A stretch of DNA of 41,188 nt. Source: Nitrospirota bacterium. GTDB taxonomy: Bacteria > Nitrospirota > Thermodesulfovibrionia > Thermodesulfovibrionales > UBA6898. This document shows, piece by piece, positions 4,674 to 39,224 of this stretch (positions are counted from its first letter, which is position 1; each line of letters begins with the position of its first letter). Location: contig JACRLQ010000060.1 of assembly GCA_016215155.1 (NCBI GenBank), positions 1 to 41,188 of the forward strand, given 5' to 3'. Under the pieces are notes generated by a model. That model ran no database searches. It saw nothing but the letters and a program-made list of their open reading frames with translations, and was not told the DNA's origin. The position numbers and the translations under genes were made by a program.

Positions 4674-5606
4674 TTATTGGTGTTTAGATTCATCCACCTT
4701 CTTTTTCCGGTTCTGGACAAAGGCGTCACGCATCGAGACATACGGGTCGATCGCCGCGTCCTTGAAGGATTCGTAATCTCCTATTTTGAATGACGCATCA
4801 TTGACCACTTCGTGCGCGGATATTCCGGCGGCCTGCCAGAAGGTGAGATCGGAGCTTGATACATAGGTCAGGGGATGCATGAACCGGTCTCCCACAAGCC
4901 CCACCCCGTCACGGAGAGAAGATGGCCCGAACAACGGCAGCACCAGATAGAACCCATGGTCCAGGCCGTAACGGCCGAGCGTCTGGCCGAAATCGGCCTC
5001 CTGTTTATGTATACCGAAGACATCTTTTCCGGCGTCCCCGATGCCCCCGACGCCTATAAATGTGTTGGCGGCAAACCTTATAAGCTCATTGCCCGCCGCC
5101 TTTAATCTCAGCTGCATCAGGTTGTTCAGTATCCTTGAGGGCGCCCAGAGGTTGTCATATATATTGCTGAATATGACTCTCAGGTCTTCGGGAAGGCGTG
5201 AATAGCCCTGGGCCACAGGCTTGAGCACCCGGAAATATAGCTTGTCGTTAAAATTGAACATTACCTTGTTTGTTGGGGCGAAAGGGTCCTGGATCTGAGG
5301 TCCCTCATCGTCGTAACTTTCGGAAATGCCGCTGTCTCCGACAATCATCCGCCCTTCGGTTGTCTCCCTTTCGGGCCCGCCCTCCACAGGTGTCGATGCC
5401 GGCGGATTCTGTGCGACCTCATCCGGAGCGGAATGAATCAGCGGGACCACAGGGGTCGCGGGGCTTTCCGACTTTGCCGGGTTATCCGGGACTGCTTCGG
5501 GTGTATCCGCCAGGAGGTAGGCGGGACAAAGCAGCAGTATAAAACCCAATAGTATAATTTTGAGGGACCTGTTGTTTTTTATTGTTTCTATTTTGCTAAT
5601 GTTCAT
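4674..5606 (-). CDS. mlaA: MlaA/VacJ family outer-membrane phospholipid-transport protein
   Basis: 310 residues. MlaA forms a ring in the outer membrane that removes mislocalised phospholipids from the outer leaflet and hands them to MlaC. The MlaA domain spans about 105-300, starting with the signature DPFAPTNKVMFNFNDKLY and continuing through NIYDNLWAPSRILNNLMQ, RFAANTFIGVGGIGD, ADFGQTLGRYG, FYLVLPLFGPSSLRD and the terminal FKDAAIDPYVSMRDAFVQ. A hydrophobic N-terminal segment (15-32) is followed by a Pro/Glu-rich linker of about 70 residues, longer than in E. coli. The only Cys near a cleavage site is in ILLLCP, which lacks the small residue normally required before a lipidated Cys, so lipidation is uncertain. 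It follows mlaC after one base and precedes dus. Confidence 0.93.
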   Translation of the reverse strand: MNISKIETIKNNRSLKIILLGFILLLCPAYLLADTPEAVPDNPAKSESPATPVVPLIHSAPDEVAQNPPASTPVEGGPERETTEGRMIVGDSGISESYDDEGPQIQDPFAPTNKVMFNFNDKLYFRVLKPVAQGYSRLPEDLRVIFSNIYDNLWAPSRILNNLMQLRLKAAGNELIRFAANTFIGVGGIGDAGKDVFGIHKQEADFGQTLGRYGLDHGFYLVLPLFGPSSLRDGVGLVGDRFMHPLTYVSSSDLTFWQAAGISAHEVVNDASFKIGDYESFKDAAIDPYVSMRDAFVQNRKKKVDESKHQ

Positions 5607-5607
5607 C

Positions 5608-6219
5608 TTATTTCCCTGCCTTTTTCCTCAGGGTTTCGATCAATGATTCCGGAGGTTTGTTAGCGAGTATCTCTTTGAACTGGGAGCGGTAGTTGCTGCT
5701 GAGGCTCACGCCTTCAACGACCACGTCATAGACCTTCCAGGAACCATCCTTTAGTATGACCCTGTAGTAAATCGGGACCTCCGAGGTCTTCCTGAGGACG
5801 GAACTTCTCACCTCGACCGTCTTTTCCGTGAGCGGGACCTCCTTGCTGAAGGTTATCTTTTCATCGGTGTAAGCCAGGATCTTATCGTTGTAGGCATCCC
5901 CAAGTATCGTTTTATAAAGCTCGGTAAACTCCTGCTGCTGAGCCGGATTAAGCTTGTTCCAGTTCTGGGCCAGGGTCCTCTTTGAGAGTTCCGTGAAGTC
6001 AAACATCTTCTCCGAGATGGCCCGGAGTTTCTCCTTTTTGGTCTTCTTTGCGGCTTCCCCCTTGAGGGAGGGGTCCCTCAGCACATCCAGCACCTGGTCG
6101 GCGTGACCCTTCACCGTATCAAGCGGCAGGCCTGCAAAGGCGGCTGCAGGCATTACCAGCCAGAGAATAAATATCATCAGCATGAGGTATTTCTTCATCG
6201 CTTTGTTCTCAATAATCAT
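5608..6219 (-). CDS. mlaC: MlaC periplasmic phospholipid-binding protein
   Basis: 203 residues. MlaC shuttles phospholipids across the periplasm between MlaA and the inner-membrane MlaFED complex. The N-terminus carries a Sec signal (KKYLMLMIFILWLVMPAAAFAG) with an AFA-G cleavage site near residue 29. The mature part has the family blocks MFDFTELSKRTLAQNWNKL, then EFTELYKTILGDAY, a strand with VPIYYRVILKDGSWKVYD, VVVEGVSLSSNYRSQFKEIL and a basic C-terminal helix. The ATG at 6219 overlaps the mlaD stop as ATGA and has AAGGAG 5 bases upstream, which supports this start over the internal Met 8. Its place between mlaD and mlaA is the standard gene order. Confidence 0.95.
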   Translation of the reverse strand: MIIENKAMKKYLMLMIFILWLVMPAAAFAGLPLDTVKGHADQVLDVLRDPSLKGEAAKKTKKEKLRAISEKMFDFTELSKRTLAQNWNKLNPAQQQEFTELYKTILGDAYNDKILAYTDEKITFSKEVPLTEKTVEVRSSVLRKTSEVPIYYRVILKDGSWKVYDVVVEGVSLSSNYRSQFKEILANKPPESLIETLRKKAGK

Positions 6220-6701
6220 TTGGTCTCCTTCCTGTCTTCCTTTTTGTCGTCTTTTTTTACATCTCCGAAGGCGTATTTGCTGATCAGGTCCTCTATATCG
6301 ATCGGGGAGGTAGTTTCAGTGATCGTCCCTCCGGGTTTCAGGATTTCGCCTGACCCTCCCGGTTCAATCTTGACATACTTGTCCCCGATGAGACCTGCTG
6401 TCCTGATTGACGCAGCGGCGTCGTCGTAGACCTTGATATCTTTTCTGATCTTCAAGTCAACCACCGCCATCTGTTTTTCCTGGTCTATGCGCATCTGGTC
6501 AACACGACCGACCTCTATCCCTCCGATTTCGACGGGGTTGCCGACCCTCAGTCCCGATACTGAACCAAAGCTTGCACGGATAGAATAGTAATCATCTCCG
6601 AAAAGGGATACCTTACCCAGTTTTACGGTCATATACGCCACGCAGAGCAGGCCGATGACCACAAAGATGCCGACAACCGTTTCGATCTTATATTTATTCA
6701 T
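6216..6701 (-). CDS. mlaD: MlaD, MCE-domain lipid-transport protein
   Basis: 161 residues from the ATG at 6701. MlaD is a single-pass inner-membrane protein whose MCE domains form a hexameric ring that passes phospholipids between the MlaFE transporter and MlaC. The sequence starts MNKYKIETVVGIFVVIGLLC, one membrane helix, followed by a single MCE domain (about 35-115): YYSIRASFGSVSGLRVGNPV, then EIGGIEVGRVDQM, LKIRKDIKVYDDAAASIRT and GLIGDKYVKIEPGG. The C-terminus is charged and probably disordered (KKDDKKEDRKETK). A start 8 codons earlier is possible, but GGAAGGTGG lies before Met 6701, and that ATG overlaps the mlaF stop as ATGA, as expected for translational coupling. Confidence 0.94.
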   Translation of the reverse strand: MNKYKIETVVGIFVVIGLLCVAYMTVKLGKVSLFGDDYYSIRASFGSVSGLRVGNPVEIGGIEVGRVDQMRIDQEKQMAVVDLKIRKDIKVYDDAAASIRTAGLIGDKYVKIEPGGSGEILKPGGTITETTSPIDIEDLISKYAFGDVKKDDKKEDRKETK

Positions 6702-7951
6702 TTGGAACCACCTTCCTTGCCGCACTGATATCGTGCGATGATCTTCTGGTCAGCCTTGGCCTTTTCCATTATCTGTTCAATGTCATCAGAGACGCCGGCG
6801 GTGGCCATGCCTGAGGTCACGAGTATCTCGAAGCATTGGCTTGTCCCGGACCTGCTTTTGGCGATCGCCTGGAGCTCGGGCAGGGCCTTTTGCTGAATCT
6901 CAAGAGCCATTTCCCGAACCAACTGCCCGGCCTCATCAAGGCCTATGTGGGGCAGGATTGTCAGGATTTCGTCTCTGCTATGGCGTGCCGAGAACCCCCC
7001 CATAGGACCGAAATAGTTATTTATATGCTCTCCCAGGGTCTTAAGTACTTCTAAGGCGGCCTGGGCCCCGAGCGCCGCGGTCAGCGCGTCAAACTGGACG
7101 CAAAAGAGCACGGCGCTTATCGTGGTGTCTGCTTGTCCGCCCCCCAGTGTCAGGGCATATCTGGACCTGAACATCTCCTTTGACAAAAGCCCTGTCAACT
7201 CGTCCCTGAGGCCCTCGATGCTCTGGAGAAATTCATCAATCATGGGGTGTCTGACCCTGGTCAACTCCGCGTACGTGCCATGAAAACCGATCTTCCCTTC
7301 CCACAGAAGAAGTATCCGGTCGGAGATGAAGAAGACATCGGGGATGTCATGGCTGATCAGAACGGCGGTAAACCCGAACTGTCTCCGGTAATGGGCGATC
7401 ATGCTGAGTATTATGTTTTTTCTGATCGGGTCCTGGCCGGTTGTCGGTTCGTCAAAGAGTACTATGGCAGGGTCCGTTACAAGGGCGCGGGCCAGGGCCA
7501 CCCTCTTCTGCATTCCGCCCGAAAGCTCCGAAGGATACTTGTCAACGGAGTCCGTCAATTCCATCTGTTCTATCCTGGACATCACCTTACGGTCGACCTC
7601 CCTTTTTTTGAGCCTGGTAGTCTGACGAAGGGGAAGGGCGATGTTTTCATAGACCGACATGGCGTCGAAGAGGGCGTTATTCTGGAACATGTAGCTGATC
7701 TTGCTCCTATAGTCCTCCCATTCGCCTTTTTTCATCTCCTGAACAGGTCTTCCCCTGAATAATATGCTGCCTTCGTCAGGAGAAAGTATCCCGATAATAT
7801 GCTTAAGCAGAACGCTTTTTCCGCTGCCGCTTTTGCCTATTATCGTCGTAATCTGATTTTCACAAATCGAGAGATTCGCCTTATCGAGAATGGTCTTTTC
7901 GCTGAAGCGTTTTGTGACCTCCCTGAATTCTATCAATGGTGTATCCAACAT
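6698..7951 (-). CDS. mlaF: MlaF ABC ATPase fused to a degenerate GGDEF-like domain
   Basis: 417 residues against about 270 for ordinary MlaF. Residues 1-245 are the ABC ATPase that powers MlaFED lipid transport: Walker A GKSGSGKS, Q-loop YMFQNNALFD, signature LSGGMQKRVALARAL, Walker B AIVLFDEPTTGQDP and switch His in LISHD. The remaining 170 residues resemble a diguanylate-cyclase fold: RDELTGLLSKEMF (near 250) matches the GGDEF-domain opening DxLTGLxNRRxF, and ARHSRDEILTILPH (near 322-335) aligns with the RYGGDEFxxLLP block, the catalytic GGDEF reading SRDEI. No RxxD inhibitory site precedes it. Catalysis of c-di-GMP synthesis is therefore unlikely; it may sense a nucleotide or mediate assembly. 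The gene follows mlaE after 6 bases and overlaps mlaD by 4. The GGDEF relationship was judged by eye. Confidence 0.9.
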   Translation of the reverse strand: MLDTPLIEFREVTKRFSEKTILDKANLSICENQITTIIGKSGSGKSVLLKHIIGILSPDEGSILFRGRPVQEMKKGEWEDYRSKISYMFQNNALFDAMSVYENIALPLRQTTRLKKREVDRKVMSRIEQMELTDSVDKYPSELSGGMQKRVALARALVTDPAIVLFDEPTTGQDPIRKNIILSMIAHYRRQFGFTAVLISHDIPDVFFISDRILLLWEGKIGFHGTYAELTRVRHPMIDEFLQSIEGLRDELTGLLSKEMFRSRYALTLGGGQADTTISAVLFCVQFDALTAALGAQAALEVLKTLGEHINNYFGPMGGFSARHSRDEILTILPHIGLDEAGQLVREMALEIQQKALPELQAIAKSRSGTSQCFEILVTSGMATAGVSDDIEQIMEKAKADQKIIARYQCGKEGGSK

Positions 7952-7957
7952 ACTCCT

Positions 7958-8776
7958 TTACATCAGAAATGAGGTGACTACGTAATCCGAGACCAGGATC
8001 GTGACGCACGAAAATACAACTGCCGAAGTTGTCGAGATACTGACGCTCTTTGAGCCATAGCTGTCGGTCCGGAGGTGCGTGAAGTATCCGTGGAAACAGC
8101 ATATAGTCGAAACGAGCACGGCAAACACCAGTGACTTGATAAACCCGCCCCTGATATCGACCAGGTCCACATACTCACGGATGCGGTAAAAGTAGGCGCC
8201 TTTGTCCACCCCCAGGAGGACGACGCCGGTGAGATAGCCGCCCAGGATCCCGATCAGATCAAAAAAGGCGGTCAGCAGGGGAAAACTGATGATAGACGCG
8301 GCCAGACGCGGACTTATAATATACCGCACCGGGTCTATCCGCATGGTATATAATGCATCGATCTGCTCGGAGATACGCAGAATACCTATCTCAGCCGTCA
8401 TCGCCGAGCCTGCCCGCGCGGTTATCATTATGGCGGTAAGAACGGGCCCCAGCTCTCTGATGAGGGTCAGGGCCACGACAGAGCCCAGGACCCCCTGGGA
8501 CCCGAATTTTACCAGGGTGTAATATAGCTGAAGACCGAGGACCATGCCGGTGAACAGGCCGACCAGCATCACGATATTCGATGACCTCGCCCCTATGTAA
8601 AAAATCTGCTGGATTATCTCCCGTAACTGCTTCGGCCGGAAGATTTTAAGTGTCGCAAGCGCAAAAAAGACCGCTATTGCGCCAAGGCTGTTTGTGATGT
8701 CCATCGCCCTTTTGCCAAGAGAATGAAAGAAAGGCACGAAAGGAATATTTTTTGAGATAGGCTCCATTTGAGTCAT
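7958..8776 (-). CDS. mlaE: MlaE inner-membrane permease of the Mla transporter
   Basis: 272 residues from the ATG at 8776 (MTQMEPISK). MlaE is the transmembrane subunit that, with MlaF, drives phospholipid transfer at the inner membrane. The sequence has the family's membrane helices and signature segments: GARSSNIVMLVGLFTGMVLG, then VALTLIRELGPVLTAIMITA, ARAGSAMTAEIGILRISEQI, the EQIDAL coupling helix, and YIISPRLAASIISFPLLT. A longer reading begins at 8848, but its extra residues (GPYTICPYTILWLPAG) do not look like MlaE and there is no ribosome site; AGGA lies about 10 bases before the chosen ATG. It is the first gene of the operon and is divergent from ftsH, with about 110 bases between them. 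Confidence 0.93.
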   Translation of the reverse strand: MTQMEPISKNIPFVPFFHSLGKRAMDITNSLGAIAVFFALATLKIFRPKQLREIIQQIFYIGARSSNIVMLVGLFTGMVLGLQLYYTLVKFGSQGVLGSVVALTLIRELGPVLTAIMITARAGSAMTAEIGILRISEQIDALYTMRIDPVRYIISPRLAASIISFPLLTAFFDLIGILGGYLTGVVLLGVDKGAYFYRIREYVDLVDIRGGFIKSLVFAVLVSTICCFHGYFTHLRTDSYGSKSVSISTTSAVVFSCVTILVSDYVVTSFLM

Positions 8777-8873
8777 TGTATCACGTCCTGCAGGCAACCA
8801 CAATATTGTGTATGGGCATATCGTGTATGGGCCTTTTTCAATTCCCACTATTCAAGGCAAACAAAGAAAAAGG

Positions 8874-13076: not shown

Positions 13077-16000
13077 TTGAAGGAGAGGCAGAAAACAGTG
13101 CACTGGAGCAGGCCTCATTTGAGAGCAAGCTTTCACGTTAAAGAGCTGGAAAAAAAATGCGCGGTCTGCGAGCCGCCGCTCCGGTCGGAATTGTTCAGCA
13201 GGGACCAGATGGAACTGCATGGCAAGACCCTGGCCGGCAGGCACAAACTGAGCCCTGCATATCCGCCTGATAAGCTCCTTTCGCGACTGGCCGAAAATGA
13301 AGACATCCTTACCGGGACCCGTCGTCTGCTGATGGAGGCGGTCATGACGGACCGCCGGATCACGCCGGCAGGTGAATGGCTGCTCGACAACTTTTATCTG
13401 ATCGAAGAACAGGTCCGCATGGCCAGGAGACATCTGCCGAAGGGATACAGCCGGGAGCTTCCCCGCCTGCAGGACGGCCTCTCTTCCGGACTTCCCCGTG
13501 TTTATGATCTGGCTCTGGAGACGATCTCTCACGGAGACGGCATGGTGGACCCGGAAAACCTCAGCAGTTTCGTTGCGGCCTACCAGACGGTCAGTGTACT
13601 GAAACTGGGCGAATTATGGGCAATCCCCATAATGCTGCGTCTGGCCCTGATCGAGAACCTCCGGCGCGTTGCCGTCAGGATTGCCTCAGACAGGACCAAC
13701 CGGAACCTCGCTGATTACTGGGCTGACCGGATTACGGAGACCGCGGAGAAGGACCCCGGCAGCCTGATCCTGGTGATTGCGGACATGGTGCGGTCGGACC
13801 CCCCGATAGTGAGTTCGTTTGTCGCGGAATTTACCCGCCGGCTGCAGGGACAGAGTCCGGCACTGGCCCTGCCGCTGACCTGGCTTGAACAGCGGCTCTC
13901 GGAGAACGGTCTGACGATTGAGCAGTCAGTGCATGCCGAAAACCAGCAGCAGGCCGCCGACCAGGTTTCTATAAGCAACAGCATAGGCAGTCTGCGATTC
14001 CTTGGGGCGATGGATTGGCCAGAGTTCGTCGAGAAGATGAGCCCGGTCGAAGAGGTATTGCGTGAGGACCCTGCCGGGGTCTATGGGAAGATGGATTTCG
14101 CCACCCGCGACCGCTACCGTCACGTCATTGAGAGGATTGCCAGGGGCAGCCGGCTCTCGGAAGTCGAAGTGGCGCTCAAGGCCGTAGGCCTTGCCCGCGA
14201 GGCCATAGACGATCGCGAAGCTCATGTGGGTTATTACCTGGTCGACAAGGGATTGCCGAATCTCGAAACACAGTCGGATTTTCGCACGCCCTTCACCGGG
14301 GCCCTTCGAAAAACAGGCTCCCGTTTCCCTTTGACCCTATATCTTGGCGCGATAACGTTCATGACGGCGGTCCTTACCGGGGGGGCACTGGTTAAGGCGC
14401 ATGGTGATGGCTTGCCTCTTTGGGTGTTTGTAACGACCGGCATATTGTCGGCCCTTTGTGCGAGCCAGCTGTCGGTTTCAGTAATAAACTGGCTTGCGAC
14501 ATTGCTCGTAACTCCTCAGCCCCTGCCGCGAATGGACTTTTCGAAGGGTATTCCGCCTGAATCGCAGACCCTGGTAATCGTGCCTGCAATGCTCGCAAAC
14601 GGCCAGGGTGTCGAGGACCTGATCGAGAAGCTTGAGGTCAGGTTCCTCGCAAACCGCGATGATAATCTGCGTTTCGGTCTGCTGACCGATTTTCAGGATG
14701 CGGCAGTCGAGACGACCCCGGAGGACGGGCCTCTGCTGTCACATGCCAGGCAGAGAATCGGGGAACTCAATGAAAAATACCATAACGAAAAAGGAGATAC
14801 GTTCTTCCTTTTTCACCGCCCCCGCCTATGGAATGACCGGGACCAGGTCTGGATGGGTTACGAGCGGAAGCGCGGTAAGCTGTCGGAACTGAATTCCTTG
14901 TTGAGAGGCGGCAGTCGCGTGAACTTTTCGCTCATAGCCGGCGATACCCGGGTCTTGTCCGGCGTAAAGTATGTGATCACACTTGACACGGATACACAGT
15001 TGCCGCGCGATGCCGCGCGGCATCTGGTGGCGGCCATGGCGCACCCCCTGAACCGCGCGCAATACGACGAGGGCAAACAGCGCGTTGTCGCGGGATACGG
15101 CATACTTCAGCCGCGGGTCGGGGTGAGTCTTCCCGGCTCGAACCGCTCTAGGTACGCCCGCATGAACGGGAGCAACCCCGGCATCGACCCTTACACGCGT
15201 GCTATTTCCGATGTGTACCAGGACCTGTTTGGTGAAGGCTCGTTTATCGGCAAGGGGATCTATGACGTCGACGCATTCGAGCGGGCCCTTGCCGGACGCT
15301 TCCCCGAAAACCGCATCCTGAGCCACGACCTCATAGAAGGATGTTACGCGCGGTCCGGACTGTTGAGTGATGTGATGGTGTACGAGGATTATCCCTCCCG
15401 CTACGGCGCGGACGTGAGCCGCCGGCACCGCTGGGTCCGCGGAGACTGGCAACTTTTGCGCTGGCTTTTGCCGGCAGTACCGGGCCCTGACGGGCAGCGG
15501 CTGAAAAACCCTCTGTCACTGCTGTCCCGATGGAAGCTCTTAGACAACCTCAGGCGGAGCCTCGTGCCTTCTGCATTAACGCTTCTTCTGCTTCTGGGCT
15601 GGACGGTCCTGTCGTCGCCGTTGTTCTGGACCCTATTTGTAAGCGGGACCCTCCTGATTCCTTCTCTGATATCCTCTGTCCAGGACCTGTTTAAGAGGCC
15701 TCAAGACCTGCCTTTTGGGCGTCACCTCGCTGACGTTGGCCGTTTTGGGGTCAGGCGGTTTGTTCAGGACGGGTTTACGCTTGCCTGTCTTCCGTATGAG
15801 GCATATTTCAGTCTGGATGCGGTCCTGCGTACGATCTGGAGACTGCTGGTTACCCGCAGACTCCTCCTCGAATGGAGTCCGTCGGTAGATCCGGACCAAA
15901 ATATAAGCAAAGCCCGCGAAGGGAATTTCCTCGGCGTCTGCCGGATTATGTGGGCCGCTCCCGCTCTCGCTACAGCCACAACTCTTTATCTGGCGTTTTT

Positions 16001-19000
16001 GCGGCCGGACGGGTTGGTCGTGGCCACGCCTCTGCTGGCGCTCTGGTCGGTCTCCCCCTTTGTGGCGTGGTGGACCAGCCGGACCCTGACCCGCCCCGCG
16101 GCTAGGCTTACGAATGACCAGATTATTTTTCTGGGGAGGCTTTCACGAAAGACCTGGGCCTTTTTTGAGACCTTCGTGGGCCCTGAAGACCACTGGCTGC
16201 CGCCTGATAACTATCAGGAGTATCACATTGATTCGGTGGCGCATCGCACTTCGCCGACGAACATGGGGCTCGCGCTGCTTGCGAATCTTTCGGCATATGA
16301 CTTCGGTTATATATCGGCCGGGGGATTTATAGGGCGCACGGAGGATGCCCTTCGCACGATGGGGTCCATGGACCGATACCGCGGCCACTTCTATAACTGG
16401 TACGACACGCTGACGCTGAAACCGTTGCTGCCTGCCTATATCTCTACCGTCGACAGCGGCAACCTGGCTGCCCACCTCCTGACGCTGCGGGCCGGGCTGC
16501 TTTCGATCCCGGACCAAAAGGTCATGGGCGCCCGGCTGATTGAAGGGCTCAACGATACGTTCAGGGTCCTCGAGGACTCCGCTTCGGCAATTTCCCCGGA
16601 AAAAAGCGCTTTTTCAAGGATGGCCCGCCTCCGGAAGACGTTCGGGTCTGTACGCAATTCCCTTCAGGAGACACTTGAGTCTGCGCGGCGCGGTCTTGAG
16701 CTGCTGGCCGCGGACGCTTCCGGATTGACGGAAAGTCTCGGGGCCCGGAATGCCGATGAGACGGGTCCGGACAAGGAATTCGCATGGTGGGCGCACGCCT
16801 TTGCCGTGCAATGCCGGACCCTTCTTGATGACCTTGAGTTTTTCATTTCACCGGCGGTCAGCGGCATGGATATTAACCCAACGTTGCGCGAACTGGCGGA
16901 ACTTGGAGACGCGCGCGCCATCGAAAGGATCGCGGTCATCGAGCGCCTTGCGCTGAAAGCGGGCGAGCTCAGCCGCATGGACTATGATTTTCTGTTCGAC
17001 CCGGCGCGGCATCTTCTTTCGATAGGGTACAACGTAGGCGAGCGCAGGAGGGACCCGGGTTTTTACGATCTTCTCGCCTCTGAAGCGCGCTTGTCCTGCT
17101 TTGTGGCGATAGCGCAGGGGCAGCTGCCCCAGGAGAGCTGGTTTGCCCTTGGGCGCCTGCTCACCTCGGCCGGCGGAGAGCCGGCCCTGCTTTCATGGAG
17201 CGGTTCAATGTTTGAATACCTGATGCCGCTTCTCGTGATGCCGGTGTATGAACATACGCTTTTGGACCAGACCTGCAAGGCGGCCGTGAACAGGCAGATC
17301 GAGTACGGCAGGCTGCGCGGGGTGCCGTGGGGGATATCTGAATCAGGCTACAACACGGTCGATGTGCATCTAAACTACCAGTACCGCGCATTCGGGGTGC
17401 CGGGTCTCGGGCTCAAACGGGGACTCTCTGATGATCTGGTCATTGCGCCCTATGCCTCTGCGCTGGCGTTGATGGTGGCCCCGGAGGAGGCGTGCAGTAA
17501 CCTGCAGCGGCTCAGCGCTGAAGGTCTTGAGGCCCGGTATGGTTTTTATGAGGCTGTTGACTATACCTCCTCGCGCCAGCTGCGCAGCGAATCGAGCACT
17601 GTGGTGCGGTCATTCATGGCACATCACCAGGGTATGACCCTTCTGTCTCTGGCCCATCTTCTCCTGGAGCGGCCGAATCAGAAAAGGTTCGGATCGGACC
17701 CATTGTTTCAGGCCACGATGCTTCTTCTTCAGGAGCGGGTGCCGAGGGCAACCGCTGTTTATCTGGAGACCCCCGAGCTCCCCGACATCCGTGCGACCTT
17801 CAGCGGGACGGAAATGCCGATGCGCGTCTTCAGCAGCCCCAATACGCCGGTGCCGGAGGTGCAGCTGCTGTCCAACGGCAGATACCACGTGGTTGTGACG
17901 AATGCGGGCGGCGGATACAGCCAATGGAAAAACATATCGGTAACGCGCTGGAGGGAAGACACTACCTGCGACAACTGGGGCACGTTCTGTTACCTCCGCG
18001 ATGTGGCGAGCGGGAGGTTCTGGTCGACTGCGTATCAGCCCGCTCTCAAGGCGGCCGACACATACGAAGCGATTTTCTCGGATGCGCGGGCGGAGTTCCG
18101 CCGGCGCGACTTCGACTATGACACGCATACGGAGATCGTTGTCTCGCCGGAAGATGACATTGAGCTGCGCCGGACCCGCATTACGAATTACTCCAGGACC
18201 CGAAGGACCATTGACGTAACGAGTTATGCGGAAGTCGTTTTGTCCATGGCCGCCCCGGACGCCCTGCACCCGGCTTTCAGTAATCTTTTCGTTCAGACCG
18301 AGATCATCGGCCGGCAGCGAGCCATTGTCTGCAACCGCCGGCCCCGCTCCCTTGAGGAGCATACACCATGGATGTTTCACCTCATGACGGCCCACGGCGG
18401 GGAGATCACGGAAGTTTCTTATGAGACCGACCGCATGAAGTTCATCGGTCGCGGGAGGTCTGCCGCCAATCCAAGGGCCATGAGCGGCCGATCGACCCTC
18501 TCGGGGGCACTTTCAGGAAGCGAGGGGTCGGTGCTCGATCCGATTGTCGCAATCAGGTACCGGATAACTCTCGATCCCGACGCCTCGGCGACAATCGATA
18601 TAGTCTCCGGCCTCGCGGAGACCCGGGAGGGCTGTATGGGCCTGGTCGAGAAATATCAGGACCGGCGTTTTGCCGACCGCGTCTTCGATCTGGCGTGGAC
18701 TCACAGCCAGGTGCTGCTCAGGCAGCTCAATGTCACGGAGTCCGACGCGCAACTATACGGGCGTCTTGCGGGCTCTATTATTTATGGTAATGCATCGCTC
18801 CGCGCCGAAACGGACATCCTCAATAAAAACCACCGCGGCCAGTCCGGTCTGTGGGGATACGCCATTTCCGGGGACCTGCCGATAGTGCTTCTGAGGATCG
18901 GAGACCCGGCCAATATCGATCTTGTGCGGCAACTGGTCAAGGCCCACGCATACTGGCGTCTGAAGGGACTGGCGGTGGACCTTGTGATCTGGAACGAAGA

Positions 19001-21734
19001 TCGCGCAGGTTACCGGCAGCTTCTTCAGGACCAGATCATGGGGCTTATCGCCGCCGGCCTTGAGGCAAGCGTGACGGACCGGCCGGGCGGCATTTTCGTA
19101 AGACTTGCCGAACAGATATCGCAAGAAGACCGCACGCTGCTTCAGACAGTGGCCCGCGTCGTACTTAGCGATAATTGGGGAAAACTGGAGGACCAGGTCA
19201 GCCGCCGCCGTCCTGTGAAGACAACAGTGCCGCGCCTCAAACCGACCCAGGCCCTGCGGCCCGAGTCCTCAACGTCCGTGGCCATGCCCCGCCGCGATCT
19301 GCTTTTCTTTAACGGGTTGGGAGGATTCAGTTCGGATGGACGCGAGTACATCATTACCACCACCCACGGACAGGTTACTCCGGCGCCCTGGGTCAATGTG
19401 ATCGCGAACCCGCACTTCGGGACGGTCATTTCAGAGAGCGGTTCTGCCTATACCTGGAGCGAAAATGCGCACGAGTTCCGCCTTACTCCCTGGAATAACG
19501 ACCCGGTAAGCGATTCCGGAGGAGAGGCTTTTTATCTGCGTGACGAAGACAGCGGGCTATTCTGGTCTCCTTCTCCGCTGCCGTGCCGCGGCGCGGCGCA
19601 TTATGTCAGCCGCCACGGATTCGGGTACAGTGTATTTGAACACACGGAAGACGGCATCAGTTCCGAGGTCTGGGTTTACGTGGCGATTGACGCATCCGTC
19701 AAGTTTACGGTCCTGAAAGTAAGGAACGGGTCAGGCCGCCCCCGCCGTCTCTCCGCCACCGGGTACGTCGAATGGGTGCTGGGAGACCTGCAGCCGAAAT
19801 CGCGGATGCATATAATCACAAAAGTTGATCCCAATACCGGAGCGCTCTTTGCGTCAAACCCATACAACACCGAGTTCGCTGAACGGACCGCCTTCTTCGA
19901 TACGGCCGATGCGCCCCGGACTTTAAGCGGCGACAGGACCGAGTTTCTGGGCCGTAACGGCACGCATCGAAACCCCGAGGCGATGTCCAGGTCGCGGCTT
20001 TCCGGCAAGTTGGGGGCAGCCCTGGACCCCTGTGGAGCTATCCAGGTCCCCTTCGATCTGGCCGACGGGCAGGAACGCGAGATCGTCTTCATGCTGGGCG
20101 CGGGACGGGACTCCGATGACGCCATCAGGCTTGTGCGTCGCTTCCGCGGACCGTCCGGCGCGCGCAGAGCACTCGAAGCGGTCTGGCAGTACTGGAACAA
20201 GACCCTCGGCACGATACAGGTGGAAACACCGGACCCCTCGGTCAATGTGCTGGCCAATGGCTGGCTCTTGTACCAGACCCTTGCGTGCCGGCTCTGGGCC
20301 AGGAGCGGATACTACCAGTCAGGGGGCGCCTTCGGCTTCCGCGACCAGCTGCAGGACATTATGGCGCTCATTTATTCCGAGCCCCGGCTTGTGCGTGAAC
20401 ACCTCCTGCTTTGCGCGGGCCGTCAGTTTCCGGAGGGAGATGTCCAGCATTGGTGGCATCCCCCTTCAGGCCGTGGTGTGCGCACGCACTGTTCGGACGA
20501 TCTCCTTTGGTTGCCCCTTGCCGTATGCCGGTACGTTCTGACTACCGGAGACACCGGGGTGCTGGACGAAACCGTCCGCTTCATCGAGGGCCGCGCGGTA
20601 AACGCGGACGAGGACTCGTACTACGATCTTCCCTACGCGTCGGATGAAGCTTCGAGTCTCTACGATCACTGCGTGCGGGCTATTTTAAAGGGCCTCACGC
20701 GCGGCAGTCATGGCCTGCCCCTCATCGGCTCGGGTGACTGGAACGACGGAATGAATATGGTAGGCGGACAGGGCAGAGGCGAAAGCATCTGGCTTGGGTT
20801 CTTCCTTTGTAAAGTACTCGAGGAATTCCGCGGGATTGCTCATATGCACGGGGACCCGTCTTTCGCCGAACGCTGCAGGGACGAATCCGCCCGGCTTCGC
20901 GGGAATATCGAAGAGCATGGCTGGGACGGCAGGTGGTATCTGCGAGCCTACTTTGATGACGGCTCTCTGCTTGGGTCGGCAGGCAATACCGAATGCAGGA
21001 TTGATTCTATCTCGCAAAGCTGGTCCGTCCTGTCGGGGGCCGGCGACGCCGCACGCTCTCTAATGGCAATGGAAGCCGTCGACAGGCATCTTGTCCGGCG
21101 GGACCATGGCCTTGTGCAGCTTCTGGATCCGCCATTCGATAAATCGGACCTGAACCCCGGCTATATCAAGGGATACGTTCCGGGTGTAAGGGAAAATGGC
21201 GGACAGTATACCCATGCGGCGATCTGGGCGGCGATGGCCTTCGCTCAACTGGGCGACGGCGGCCGGGCCTGGGAGCTGCTTTCCATGATCAATCCGGTGC
21301 GTCATGCCGGCTCCCCGGAGAAGATGTCGGTCTATAAGGTAGAACCCTATGTAGTCGCCGCGGACGTATATGCGGTTTCCCCTCACACCGGCCGCGGCGG
21401 GTGGACGTGGTACACCGGATCGTCCGGCTGGATGTACCGGCTTATTGTGGAAGCGCTTCTGGGGCTGGGGCTCGAAACGGACAGGCTCCATATCGCGCCC
21501 TGCCTGCCGGCGGGGTGGGGGTCGTTCAGGATTCATTACCGCTACCGTGAAACCGTGTACCACATCACCGTGGTCCAAACGGGCGACGGCAGCGCGGAGG
21601 GAGTGACGGTCGATGGCGTTGAACAATCCGGAATGGCCGGTATGGCTATATCCCTTGTTGACGACCGGCAGGAACATACGGTAGAGCTGAGGATACCCGC
21701 CAGGGACAAAAAAAATGGAGCGCCGTCGGTGTGA
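13077..21734 (+). CDS. cyclic beta-1,2-glucan synthase-like protein (GT84-GH94)
   Basis: 2,885 codons, matching the roughly 2,800-residue Cgs/NdvB enzymes that initiate, elongate and cyclise beta-1,2-glucan in the inner membrane, with the glucan released to the periplasm for osmoadaptation or surface interactions. The N-terminal domain has LLDNFYLIEEQVRMARRHLP. The glycosyltransferase core includes VIVPAMLAN, DTDTQLPRDA (Asp near 637) and the acceptor motif RRHRWVRGDWQ (near 780). Hydrophobic segments lie about 420-480, 830-870 and 960-1,000. Two carbohydrate-binding/GH94 repeats follow; the last contains SGGAFGFRDQLQD and GSGDWNDGMN with the catalytic Asp near 2,553, the phosphorylase-like domain that controls ring size. 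The start codon is TTG at 13077, chosen because AAAGGAG lies 9 bases upstream and no ATG fits. It appears intact and is transcribed alone. Confidence 0.95.
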   Translation: MKERQKTVHWSRPHLRASFHVKELEKKCAVCEPPLRSELFSRDQMELHGKTLAGRHKLSPAYPPDKLLSRLAENEDILTGTRRLLMEAVMTDRRITPAGEWLLDNFYLIEEQVRMARRHLPKGYSRELPRLQDGLSSGLPRVYDLALETISHGDGMVDPENLSSFVAAYQTVSVLKLGELWAIPIMLRLALIENLRRVAVRIASDRTNRNLADYWADRITETAEKDPGSLILVIADMVRSDPPIVSSFVAEFTRRLQGQSPALALPLTWLEQRLSENGLTIEQSVHAENQQQAADQVSISNSIGSLRFLGAMDWPEFVEKMSPVEEVLREDPAGVYGKMDFATRDRYRHVIERIARGSRLSEVEVALKAVGLAREAIDDREAHVGYYLVDKGLPNLETQSDFRTPFTGALRKTGSRFPLTLYLGAITFMTAVLTGGALVKAHGDGLPLWVFVTTGILSALCASQLSVSVINWLATLLVTPQPLPRMDFSKGIPPESQTLVIVPAMLANGQGVEDLIEKLEVRFLANRDDNLRFGLLTDFQDAAVETTPEDGPLLSHARQRIGELNEKYHNEKGDTFFLFHRPRLWNDRDQVWMGYERKRGKLSELNSLLRGGSRVNFSLIAGDTRVLSGVKYVITLDTDTQLPRDAARHLVAAMAHPLNRAQYDEGKQRVVAGYGILQPRVGVSLPGSNRSRYARMNGSNPGIDPYTRAISDVYQDLFGEGSFIGKGIYDVDAFERALAGRFPENRILSHDLIEGCYARSGLLSDVMVYEDYPSRYGADVSRRHRWVRGDWQLLRWLLPAVPGPDGQRLKNPLSLLSRWKLLDNLRRSLVPSALTLLLLLGWTVLSSPLFWTLFVSGTLLIPSLISSVQDLFKRPQDLPFGRHLADVGRFGVRRFVQDGFTLACLPYEAYFSLDAVLRTIWRLLVTRRLLLEWSPSVDPDQNISKAREGNFLGVCRIMWAAPALATATTLYLAFLRPDGLVVATPLLALWSVSPFVAWWTSRTLTRPAARLTNDQIIFLGRLSRKTWAFFETFVGPEDHWLPPDNYQEYHIDSVAHRTSPTNMGLALLANLSAYDFGYISAGGFIGRTEDALRTMGSMDRYRGHFYNWYDTLTLKPLLPAYISTVDSGNLAAHLLTLRAGLLSIPDQKVMGARLIEGLNDTFRVLEDSASAISPEKSAFSRMARLRKTFGSVRNSLQETLESARRGLELLAADASGLTESLGARNADETGPDKEFAWWAHAFAVQCRTLLDDLEFFISPAVSGMDINPTLRELAELGDARAIERIAVIERLALKAGELSRMDYDFLFDPARHLLSIGYNVGERRRDPGFYDLLASEARLSCFVAIAQGQLPQESWFALGRLLTSAGGEPALLSWSGSMFEYLMPLLVMPVYEHTLLDQTCKAAVNRQIEYGRLRGVPWGISESGYNTVDVHLNYQYRAFGVPGLGLKRGLSDDLVIAPYASALALMVAPEEACSNLQRLSAEGLEARYGFYEAVDYTSSRQLRSESSTVVRSFMAHHQGMTLLSLAHLLLERPNQKRFGSDPLFQATMLLLQERVPRATAVYLETPELPDIRATFSGTEMPMRVFSSPNTPVPEVQLLSNGRYHVVVTNAGGGYSQWKNISVTRWREDTTCDNWGTFCYLRDVASGRFWSTAYQPALKAADTYEAIFSDARAEFRRRDFDYDTHTEIVVSPEDDIELRRTRITNYSRTRRTIDVTSYAEVVLSMAAPDALHPAFSNLFVQTEIIGRQRAIVCNRRPRSLEEHTPWMFHLMTAHGGEITEVSYETDRMKFIGRGRSAANPRAMSGRSTLSGALSGSEGSVLDPIVAIRYRITLDPDASATIDIVSGLAETREGCMGLVEKYQDRRFADRVFDLAWTHSQVLLRQLNVTESDAQLYGRLAGSIIYGNASLRAETDILNKNHRGQSGLWGYAISGDLPIVLLRIGDPANIDLVRQLVKAHAYWRLKGLAVDLVIWNEDRAGYRQLLQDQIMGLIAAGLEASVTDRPGGIFVRLAEQISQEDRTLLQTVARVVLSDNWGKLEDQVSRRRPVKTTVPRLKPTQALRPESSTSVAMPRRDLLFFNGLGGFSSDGREYIITTTHGQVTPAPWVNVIANPHFGTVISESGSAYTWSENAHEFRLTPWNNDPVSDSGGEAFYLRDEDSGLFWSPSPLPCRGAAHYVSRHGFGYSVFEHTEDGISSEVWVYVAIDASVKFTVLKVRNGSGRPRRLSATGYVEWVLGDLQPKSRMHIITKVDPNTGALFASNPYNTEFAERTAFFDTADAPRTLSGDRTEFLGRNGTHRNPEAMSRSRLSGKLGAALDPCGAIQVPFDLADGQEREIVFMLGAGRDSDDAIRLVRRFRGPSGARRALEAVWQYWNKTLGTIQVETPDPSVNVLANGWLLYQTLACRLWARSGYYQSGGAFGFRDQLQDIMALIYSEPRLVREHLLLCAGRQFPEGDVQHWWHPPSGRGVRTHCSDDLLWLPLAVCRYVLTTGDTGVLDETVRFIEGRAVNADEDSYYDLPYASDEASSLYDHCVRAILKGLTRGSHGLPLIGSGDWNDGMNMVGGQGRGESIWLGFFLCKVLEEFRGIAHMHGDPSFAERCRDESARLRGNIEEHGWDGRWYLRAYFDDGSLLGSAGNTECRIDSISQSWSVLSGAGDAARSLMAMEAVDRHLVRRDHGLVQLLDPPFDKSDLNPGYIKGYVPGVRENGGQYTHAAIWAAMAFAQLGDGGRAWELLSMINPVRHAGSPEKMSVYKVEPYVVAADVYAVSPHTGRGGWTWYTGSSGWMYRLIVEALLGLGLETDRLHIAPCLPAGWGSFRIHYRYRETVYHITVVQTGDGSAEGVTVDGVEQSGMAGMAISLVDDRQEHTVELRIPARDKKNGAPSV

Positions 21735-35955: not shown

Positions 35956-36084
35956 TTCACCCTTCATGAAATAAACTTAACTGGATATGCGGGCCGATAT
36001 TTTATAAAATTTATAAGGTGCGGTAACGCACCGGCATATTTCACACAAGCAGAGGACTTCGGTCTTAGGTCCTGCGGAGGCGAA

Positions 36085-36384
36085 ATGGCTATCGAAAAAA
36101 GAAATTACAGAAATCCCTGCCATGAGTTAATTCGTTATACAGCGGTTGTTTTACAGGACGGAAAGGTCAAGTTTCTGGATCTGACCGGCACGGCCATAAA
36201 TAAATCGAAAAACGGGCTCTGTTTCATAACACGGTATCCGCTTAGGACCGGCCTGGTACTCGAATTCAAAAACCAGCTGGTCGACTGCAGCCATGGAGTT
36301 GTCGTCTGGATCAGGAACCTCGGTGGATGCTATATGGCCGGCACAAGACTGTTCCCAAAAGACAGCCTCGAATATCGTATTTGA
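36085..36384 (+). CDS. PilZ-domain-like protein
   Basis: 99 residues. PilZ domains bind cyclic di-GMP and change the activity of motility, secretion or polysaccharide machinery. The fold's landmarks are present: an N-terminal basic stretch (EKRNYRNPCHELIRY) in place of RxxxR, the second motif as NKSKNGLCF (N/DxSxxG), and a beta-barrel continuing with LRTGLVLEF and HGVVVWIRNLGG. The first motif is imperfect (an Arg pair K-R-N-Y-R), so c-di-GMP binding is not assured. GGAG lies 6 bases before the ATG. It follows the stand-alone receiver and ends next to a palindromic repeat that begins one base after its stop codon. Confidence 0.7.
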   Translation: MAIEKRNYRNPCHELIRYTAVVLQDGKVKFLDLTGTAINKSKNGLCFITRYPLRTGLVLEFKNQLVDCSHGVVVWIRNLGGCYMAGTRLFPKDSLEYRI

Positions 36385-37012: not shown

Positions 37013-38716
37013 TTATACCTGCTTACCCTTTCCATAGTCTTCAATAATCTTATTTTTTAGCGCTATGGTTAAGGAAGGTCCTTTAGCTGTTTTGTCATCC
37101 CCGCCGAGATTCTTGAATGTATCTGATAACCAAGTATAACAATCATCCAAAACGGGATCAGTCAGAAACGAGATATCAAGAGACGCGATCCGCGTGCGTG
37201 TGGGCTTAACAGACCTTAGCGCGGAGCAGGTTGCATGCATGGAGAGATAAAATACTAAGTTTAATTTTGTTCCTTGGGCTATATCCTTATTATCCAAGTA
37301 TGAGTCAACACGCTTCATAATCTGCGCACATTTTGGATAAAGCAGAATGGGATAATCATCAGAAAATAAATTTTTATAATTTTTCTGAGCAACCGTCGTC
37401 GGTCGTGCCCTTGCATTATCAGGTTGCTGTAATACAATTGCCGCAATAGCCTGGGCCATATAGCCAATTGTCACGATTTTGGCAGCTGATTTCCCTTTGT
37501 TTCTATAAAAATTCTTTCTTCTGTCATAATATAAGTCAACTGTCTTTAAGGCTGTTTCTATGAATCGATGAATATTTTCTGTAGCATGAAGATTAATAGG
37601 CTCAATTTTCGTTTGGCTGTTTGTTGCATTGATGATGCGGTCAGATGTTTCCTCGTCAATATTTTCGATTACTCTTACCATAAGTGTGCGCTTATCGTCC
37701 TGTGAACCCCCGGCTGAAAAATGATTAAACACTTCATAGGACGTTTGTAACCCGTTAACAATCAACGGATCTGTAACCTGTAGAGCTCCGTCATTATAGG
37801 AAACGCCAGAAGCGAGAATAGTGATACCATTATTTAACCACCAGAAGTCTTCATTTTGCGGCACTGTGAGCGTTGCCCGAATGCCCTTATTAACTTTAAC
37901 ATCGGGCGCATGATCACGCACATTTGATTCAAATATATATTCGAGAAGAACGCCTTCATTAGTGATGAACTGAAAAAAATCATAGAGTTGAACGACACAA
38001 ACATAAGCACTTTTCCCAAACGATTTCCAATCAAAATATTTAGGTGTGCGCAAAGGAAGGGTTCTCTCTGGTTGCTGGTGAAACAATTTAAGCAAATCAT
38101 TTCCATGAATAAATTCATAAGTACATTCGGCAGTTGGGAAAAACTCTTTAACTTTTGTTACTAACAAATTGGCGCGCTCCTGCACTTTTGAATCAACCGT
38201 ATCCGCAAGACTCACATGAAAAAAAATAACGCTCAATTTCGGACGCAACGACAGAGAGGGCGTGTAAATATCGTGAAATTTCTTAACAAGCGTAAGAAGG
38301 CTGTCGCTATAAAGCAGTTGCTGGCTCGCTGCGCCAATCTCAGCATTTAATCGGAGACAGTGTTCCGTGAAGTCCTTTAATTTAGTGGGGACCGATTCTT
38401 CAAATGACGCCTTATTCTTTCCCTGTATAATAATTAACTCAATGGTAAGTTGTTGATCCTTAAATGTGGCGGGATCGGTATCTTCACGGATGAATTTTCT
38501 GTTAACAAAAAGGTAAAATCCATCTACACCTCCGTCACCATCACCGCCGACGATACCTGACTCTATCTCTCTCGGGTCGGGATTAAATCTACGCGATTTC
38601 AAGACTTGCTGAGCACTAAATAGTTCAAAGAACTTATCGGGTTTCAGTGTGGGATAGTCGGATACTCTTGACTGCTCTAACACTTGCCTGAGAAGGAATT
38701 GGGAATCCTCGGTCAT
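37013..38716 (-). CDS. AIPR-family protein with PD-(D/E)xK-like N-terminus, probable phage defence
   Basis: 567 residues from ATG 38716, chosen because AAAGGAGGG precedes it; the ATG at 38779 has none. The AIPR (abortive infection phage resistance) domain is recognised by PQNEDFWWLNNGITILAS, then PLIVNGLQTSYEVFNHF, then IINATNSQTKIEPINLHA. The N-terminal 130 residues contain a nuclease-like pattern: GGVDGFYLFVN (Asp) followed about 35 residues later by IELIIIQGKNK (E...QxK), as in PD-(D/E)xK enzymes of the Mrr class. Proteins of this kind are thought to cut nucleic acid and protect against phage; the biochemical activity is not proven. The gene is more A+T-rich than the core region and lies between repeats and the DUF488 gene, with a divergent 508-base intergenic region. 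Confidence 0.82.
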   Translation of the reverse strand: MTEDSQFLLRQVLEQSRVSDYPTLKPDKFFELFSAQQVLKSRRFNPDPREIESGIVGGDGDGGVDGFYLFVNRKFIREDTDPATFKDQQLTIELIIIQGKNKASFEESVPTKLKDFTEHCLRLNAEIGAASQQLLYSDSLLTLVKKFHDIYTPSLSLRPKLSVIFFHVSLADTVDSKVQERANLLVTKVKEFFPTAECTYEFIHGNDLLKLFHQQPERTLPLRTPKYFDWKSFGKSAYVCVVQLYDFFQFITNEGVLLEYIFESNVRDHAPDVKVNKGIRATLTVPQNEDFWWLNNGITILASGVSYNDGALQVTDPLIVNGLQTSYEVFNHFSAGGSQDDKRTLMVRVIENIDEETSDRIINATNSQTKIEPINLHATENIHRFIETALKTVDLYYDRRKNFYRNKGKSAAKIVTIGYMAQAIAAIVLQQPDNARARPTTVAQKNYKNLFSDDYPILLYPKCAQIMKRVDSYLDNKDIAQGTKLNLVFYLSMHATCSALRSVKPTRTRIASLDISFLTDPVLDDCYTWLSDTFKNLGGDDKTAKGPSLTIALKNKIIEDYGKGKQV

Positions 38717-39224
38717 GAATGCACCCTCCTTTAGCCCACCACTTACAAATATGAGGCAGGACGTCATTAAATTATTCAAAACGTGCCTCCATTTTACTTG
38801 TCAAATTGCGGACGAGTCAAGTGACTTATTGCCAAAGGGAGACTTTAAGTGACATAAGGAGAATGTATTTAGATCAAGCCGTCTGGCCTAAGGGGCACCC
38901 TTTTAACCAGAGGTACTCGCTCCTTGGCTGGAAATAAACCCCACTGAAAAATGATAGAGGCGATTTTATAACCGTTCGGCGGGGATGTCGAATAGGTGGA
39001 TCAATCATCATTGGCAATAGCACCAGCTTAAATCACCTCATTTAGAGGCAGGGAAAGCTCCCTCGCTAACTACTAAATGTCAGGACAAAGAAATGTTATC
39101 AGGAAGGGGCGTAGGCACGAGGTTATGATGGACTGGAAAGTATTTGCTTCAATATCTGTGCTATTCTAACGCGGCTCTTTATTCTTAAAGAAATGCAATG
39201 TATAATTAATCTAGAGGTGCGACC
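38717..39224. other. divergent intergenic region between AIPR and DUF488 genes
   Basis: 508 bases without a convincing gene. On the plus side TATAAT at 39201-39206 precedes the DUF488 gene, with GAGGTG 8 bases before its ATG; its -35 is poor (TTTATT). The AIPR promoter must lie near 38720-38850 but was not resolved. No tandem repeat, tRNA or long hairpin was seen. Confidence 0.5.

Follow-up and report, generated by a model that had tools for sequence, protein, structure and literature searches.

A catalytically degenerate GGDEF-fold domain fused to the lipid-transport ATPase MlaF in Nitrospirota, a candidate dimerising or regulatory module

The phospholipid-transport ATPase MlaF of a Nitrospirota bacterium carries, directly behind its nucleotide-binding domain, a further domain that by sequence and predicted structure belongs to the GGDEF fold family and is not a diguanylate cyclase. 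We propose, with moderate confidence, that this GGDEF domain has lost its cyclase function and has been kept as a permanent module of MlaF that dimerises or regulates the ATPases. The gene lies in a window of 41,188 nucleotides, the whole stretch of DNA that was analysed (contig JACRLQ010000060.1 of assembly GCA_016215155.1, positions 1 to 41,188).

A GGDEF-fold extension on MlaF

The initial annotation described an MlaF ATPase fused to an inactive GGDEF-like domain, and its coordinates for the open reading frame are exact: the frame runs from 7951 to 6698 on the minus strand, which had not been specified, and encodes 417 amino acids plus the stop. Residues 1–245 (7217..7951, minus strand) form the ABC ATPase nucleotide-binding domain (Pfam ABC_tran, E = 4.5e-36) and contain the signature motif LSGGMQKR, in which the Met of LSGGM is typical of Mla-type ATPases (PMC7367683). 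The top NCBIfam model for residues 5–245 is MlaF NF008809, at 198 bits and below the 441-bit equivalog cut-off. Assignment as MlaF rests on this closest ATPase model together with the operon partners, all encoded on the minus strand: the permease gene mlaE (7958..8848; Pfam MlaE, E = 1.1e-73), mlaD for the MCE protein (6216..6701; Pfam MlaD, E = 5.4e-21), mlaC for the periplasmic lipid carrier (5608..6219; Pfam MlaC, E = 3.9e-46) and mlaA for the outer-membrane lipoprotein (4674..5606; Pfam MlaA, E = 1.8e-60). The genes stand in the order mlaE-F-D-C-A, with a dihydrouridine synthase gene next, and the window MlaD is of the short type, a feature of true Mla systems (PMC7790496). The TGA of mlaF (6700–6698) overlaps the ATG of mlaD (6701–6699); the extension is therefore translated within an intact operon.

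Structure prediction and profile searches of residues 246–417 (6698..7216, minus strand, including the stop codon), which had been put forward as a check on the fusion, agree on a GGDEF fold. The segment matches Pfam GGDEF (PF00990) at 34.8 bits (E = 1.8e-8) against a gathering score of 23.8, and the same family was matched by 15/15 extensions, each tested alone. When a profile of 59 extensions was compared with the PDB, DgcR ranked first (E = 1.1e-19), followed by PleD, DgcB and others. The AlphaFold2 model of the extension (me4648a6be78b), on which our structural conclusions are based, was computed from an alignment of 13 rows consisting of the window and related-locus rows only, and reached a pLDDT of 82.7 and a pTM of 0.80. 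All Foldseek matches listed for this model are GGDEF domains (best E = 3e-6), as are all those listed by VIA, with a top Z of 14.4 (4urq, 6tts and 2wb4) and an rmsd of 2.8–3.8 over 141–153 residues. A full-length model (14 rows) was poor, with a pLDDT of 58 and most of the ATPase part below 50, so only the extension model was used; the Foldseek matches of the full-length model were mainly ABC ATPases, headed by MlaF.

The hallmarks of the fold persist across the family. The Arg of RxGGDEF is present in 59/59 extensions, and the L, T and G of the LTG(L) turn are kept in about 97%. When the window protein is aligned with canonical GGDEF domains encoded in its own genome, the DxLT wide-turn motif is seen to be retained as DELT (residues 250–253; 7193..7204, minus strand), and the conserved Arg is R323 within GGFSARHSRDEI (residues 318–329; 6965..7000, minus strand), where SRDEI stands for GG[DE]EF. 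Both motifs originally quoted for the domain are present, DELTGLLSKEMF at residues 250–261 and ARHSRDEILTILPH at 322–335.

Residues were counted over the 59 extensions, aligned with canonical GGDEF domains of the source genome and omitting two canonical reference rows (L003 and L007) that had been taken from the wrong strand; alignment positions are given in PleD numbering. SRDEI does occupy the place of GGDEF, as had been read from the sequence alone. GG[DE]EF is kept in none of the 59 extensions, and SRDEI is common to only four of them; that the D and E of this motif (D327 and E328 in the window protein's own numbering) are kept is thus not a family rule. The first metal aspartate (PleD D327) is Asp in 0/59 extensions and Cys in the window. 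The guanine-contact positions N335 and D344 (DgcR N182 and D191) are kept in 4/59 and 0/59, respectively, and are Thr and Leu in the window, with K332 kept in one extension and K442 in two. According to the DgcR study, guanine is contacted by the equivalents of N335 and D344, the alpha-phosphate by that of K332, and a metal by residue four of the signature motif (PMC8041772). Judged from these residues, the cyclase function of the extension is lost and the domain is catalytically dead. The region of the former hairpin takes two forms, GGFS[AT]R-x-x in the main branch, to which the window protein belongs, and SR-x-G-x-N-K-I or similar in a divergent branch of 16 members.

Distribution and phylogeny

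We surveyed MlaF homologues in 61 genomes, comprising the source genome and its near relatives. Matches were bimodal: those with at least 77% identity are always extended, and those with about 45% identity, of about 250 residues, never are. Fused relatives share 64–78% identity with the full-length window protein. The extension is therefore conserved among relatives, which together with the fold bears out the original proposal that MlaF carries a degenerate GGDEF domain. The fusion is found in 20 of 395 Nitrospirota genomes, spread over 13 genera and six families. Of 345 genomes from the phylum of the Desulfobacterales, 53 give a match at 1e-80, which in most cases also covers the extension, and about 45 have the fusion. 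A search of 398 Pseudomonadota genomes at the strict cut-off of 1e-75, in which only a small number of candidates per genome was scored and no positive control was included, gave no match and argues against the fusion there. Across the surveyed fused operons of both phyla the order mlaE-F-D-C is constant, mostly with mlaA and without mlaB; no STAS (mlaB) gene was found in the operon of the window, nor in the 5 kb around these fused operons.

In the ATPase tree, all 61 fused proteins and seven plain ones form one clade with support of 100/100. Seven fused loci from the phylum of the Desulfobacterales (L115–L121) nest among Nitrospirota sequences, and this nesting suggests that the operon moved as a unit from one phylum to the other. 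Among the seven plain clade members, two (L143 and L176) carry the remains of a decayed, truncated or frame-broken extension, so that certain lineages can do without the domain, unless faulty assembly accounts for these cases. A single fusion followed by some losses is the simplest account of the sequences, on a tree whose deepest forks are unresolved. One locus (L122, G537:C15, 477–6032) holds two fused MlaF genes close by, encoding 434 and 451 amino acids, one from each sub-branch.

Candidate roles of the domain

The C-terminal tail of E. coli MlaF (residues 247–269) wraps around the twin MlaF. Its deletion abolishes function and MlaF is lost from the complex, a GCN4 dimeriser in its place partly rescues function, and MlaF remains bound to MlaED only if the STAS protein MlaB is present (PMC7367683). 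In the window protein, the GGDEF-like domain begins at residue 246, directly after the last ATPase helix, and the short handshake tail is absent. No STAS_2 gene was detected genome-wide in three genomes with the fusion (G042, G672 and G431). In cyclases, GGDEF domains function as dimers (for example, DgcR, PMC8041772). Because the domain starts at residue 246, in a system without the tail or mlaB, and because GGDEF domains of cyclases work in pairs, it probably holds the two ATPases together or tunes them. The initial annotation had offered two roles, a link to nucleotide signalling and an assembly domain. Our evidence leans towards an assembly or regulatory role, as the substrate residues and the I-site are lost in this lineage and the domain sits at the position of the E. 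coli tail.

In the mechanism that we envisage, two domain copies, one per MlaF, would meet or dock beside the ATPases, so that the MlaE-bound MlaF dimer is stabilised or tuned. The domain would take over the jobs of both the E. coli ‘handshake’ tail of about 25 residues and MlaB. Its fold would thus come from c-di-GMP signalling, and its action would resemble that of the C-terminal regulatory domains of other ABC ATPases (MetN, ModC and MalK). Plain MlaF homologues of about 250 amino acids in the same phyla have neither the extension nor a neighbouring STAS gene, so a substitute for the tail or MlaB is not strictly required for all Mla-like systems. We rejected the absence of MlaB as proof of substitution, because in these phyla the unfused Mla operons, too, have no STAS gene beside them.

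A tentative alternative is that the old cyclase hairpin has become a new site for a ligand or partner, through GGFS[AT]R in the main branch and RxxD in the divergent one, so that a nucleotide messenger or another cytoplasmic signal would gate phospholipid flux through Mla. Somewhat less probable, and on balance unlikely, is a ligand sensor in the strict sense, in which the dead domain would link phospholipid transport to second-messenger signalling by binding either c-di-GMP at the I-site or, in the former catalytic site, GTP or a different nucleotide. The genome is rich in GGDEF and PilZ proteins, with 25 and 13 matches, which bears out the earlier surmise that c-di-GMP signalling exists in this organism. 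The PilZ-like protein reported in the window itself did not hold up: the best candidate, a 100-aa open reading frame at 36082–36381, has no Pfam or NCBIfam match, and a genome-wide PilZ search gave no match on the window's contig. Dead GGDEF domains do serve as c-di-GMP receptors through RxxD, as in BcsE and PelD, two receptors of polysaccharide secretion (PMC7439463).

The state of the I-site bears on such sensing. In the window protein RxxD is gone, residues 316–319 reading PMGG, and the I-site Asp occurs in 0/42 members of the main branch, a count made with L120 (SIGA) placed outside that branch (the corrected split is 43 main and 16 divergent members). RxxD is found at the I-site in five of the 59 extensions, all among the 16 divergent members (RITD, RPND, RLTD, RVFD and RFTD), and the ancestor was therefore probably a GGDEF domain whose I-site was of the usual kind. 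The divergent sub-branch may still bind a ligand, and direct c-di-GMP sensing is possible there; in the window's lineage, such sensing is unlikely because the I-site has been lost. In the main branch, conservation is densest in the patch GGFS[AT]R, at the former active-site hairpin and the preceding strand, as would suit a binding site, but the guanine- and phosphate-binding residues are gone in nearly all members.

Lower still we place a reading in which the fold has been retained to bind another cytoplasmic protein, such as a localisation factor or an enzymatically active GGDEF protein, and not for MlaF dimerisation. The conserved patches GGFSARH and SLEGLxDELTGLLS could serve such docking, and the dead GGDEF domain of BcsE binds the protein BcsQ as well as c-di-GMP (PMC7439463), but no partner candidate is constant in the neighbourhood apart from the mla genes.

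Substitution rates were compared between the two parts of the protein. In pairs with usable dS, the extension gave dN and dS of 0.08/0.72 and 0.25/1.47, and the ATPase gave 0.02/0.92 and 0.08/1.22 in the same pairs. The dN/dS of the extension in these pairs is about 0.1–0.3, and its dN is roughly three times that of the ATPase; by this measure, the extension is under purifying selection, weaker than that on the ATPase. A functionless evolutionary relic that drifts would agree with the raised dN and with the two members whose domain has decayed, but is very improbable given the low dN/dS, the residues conserved in two phyla and a frame intact in about 60 proteins. An active cyclase with an unusual motif has a negligible chance. 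The window protein does retain D327 and E328 of SRDEI in a hairpin modelled as GGDEF-like, but Cys replaces the first metal aspartate in this protein and no extension has Asp there, both glycines and the guanine and phosphate contacts are lost, and SRDEI is confined to four members.

Known systems and a second MCE operon

E. coli MlaFEDB (PDB 6XGY and 6XBD) has the homologous ATPase, permease and MCE protein, along with MlaC and MlaA, and the C-terminal extension (CTE) of its MlaF starts at the same residue (246/247). It differs in that the CTE has only some 25 residues, most of them in extended form, and in that MlaB is a separate STAS protein, whereas the window MlaF has a folded GGDEF-like domain of 170 residues covalently attached, in an operon without a STAS gene. 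MetN, ModC and MalK also place a folded domain right behind the ATPase domain, two per transporter, and these C-terminal domains control ATPase association; their domain families differ from that of the window protein.

With PleD, DgcR and DgcB the extension shares the fold (Z about 14), the DxLT wide turn and the Arg of RxGGDEF, but it lacks GG[DE]EF and the metal- and GTP-binding residues, and it is carried on an ABC ATPase where theirs are carried on sensor domains. BcsE, PelD, LapD and FimX likewise use a non-catalytic GGDEF fold as a module, in BcsE and PelD within an envelope-related secretion system. None of the four is fused to an ABC ATPase, and BcsE and PelD keep the RxxD I-site that the window's branch lacks. 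An ammonium transporter (PDB 8QJ3 and 8QPF) also has a GGDEF-family region on a transporter chain (profile match, E = 5.3e-11), but the transporter is unrelated to Mla. A search of the open-access literature, and hence a weak one, found no published MlaF–GGDEF fusion; the architecture may be listed in domain databases.

A whole branch of MlaF has a built-in folded domain instead of the E. coli tail and regulator, and the reuse of dead GGDEF domains is thereby extended to ABC ATPases. Fused MlaF proteins offer a testable natural experiment on transporter assembly and outer-membrane integrity. Post-translational regulation of Mla transporters is an open question (PMC7367683).

The source genome has a second MCE transporter operon (L198, G000:C11, 892–6023, minus strand); in the comparison with plain Mla operons above, only this operon, on contig C11, has an adjacent STAS gene. 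At its head stands a full partner-switching module, consisting of a GAF-SpoIIE phosphatase, an RsbW-type HATPase_c_2 kinase and a STAS protein with a DSSG motif, and the genes for MlaE, MlaF, an MlaD-like protein and an ABC_trans_aux lipoprotein follow. The arrangement phosphatase-STAS-MlaE occurs in 10 of 11 loci examined, namely L198 and nine loci of relatives (L199–L206 and L208), with the kinase checked in L198 and L208 only. The gene content of these operons suggests a lipid transporter controlled through phosphorylation of the STAS protein. Phosphorylation control of MlaB-like proteins is a question raised previously (PMC7367683), on which the L198 operon bears.

Elsewhere in the window, a very large open reading frame of 2885 aa (13077–21731) resembles cyclic beta-glucan synthases in its glucoamylase and GH94 domains, and another (37016–38779) encodes an AIPR (abortive infection phage resistance) domain.
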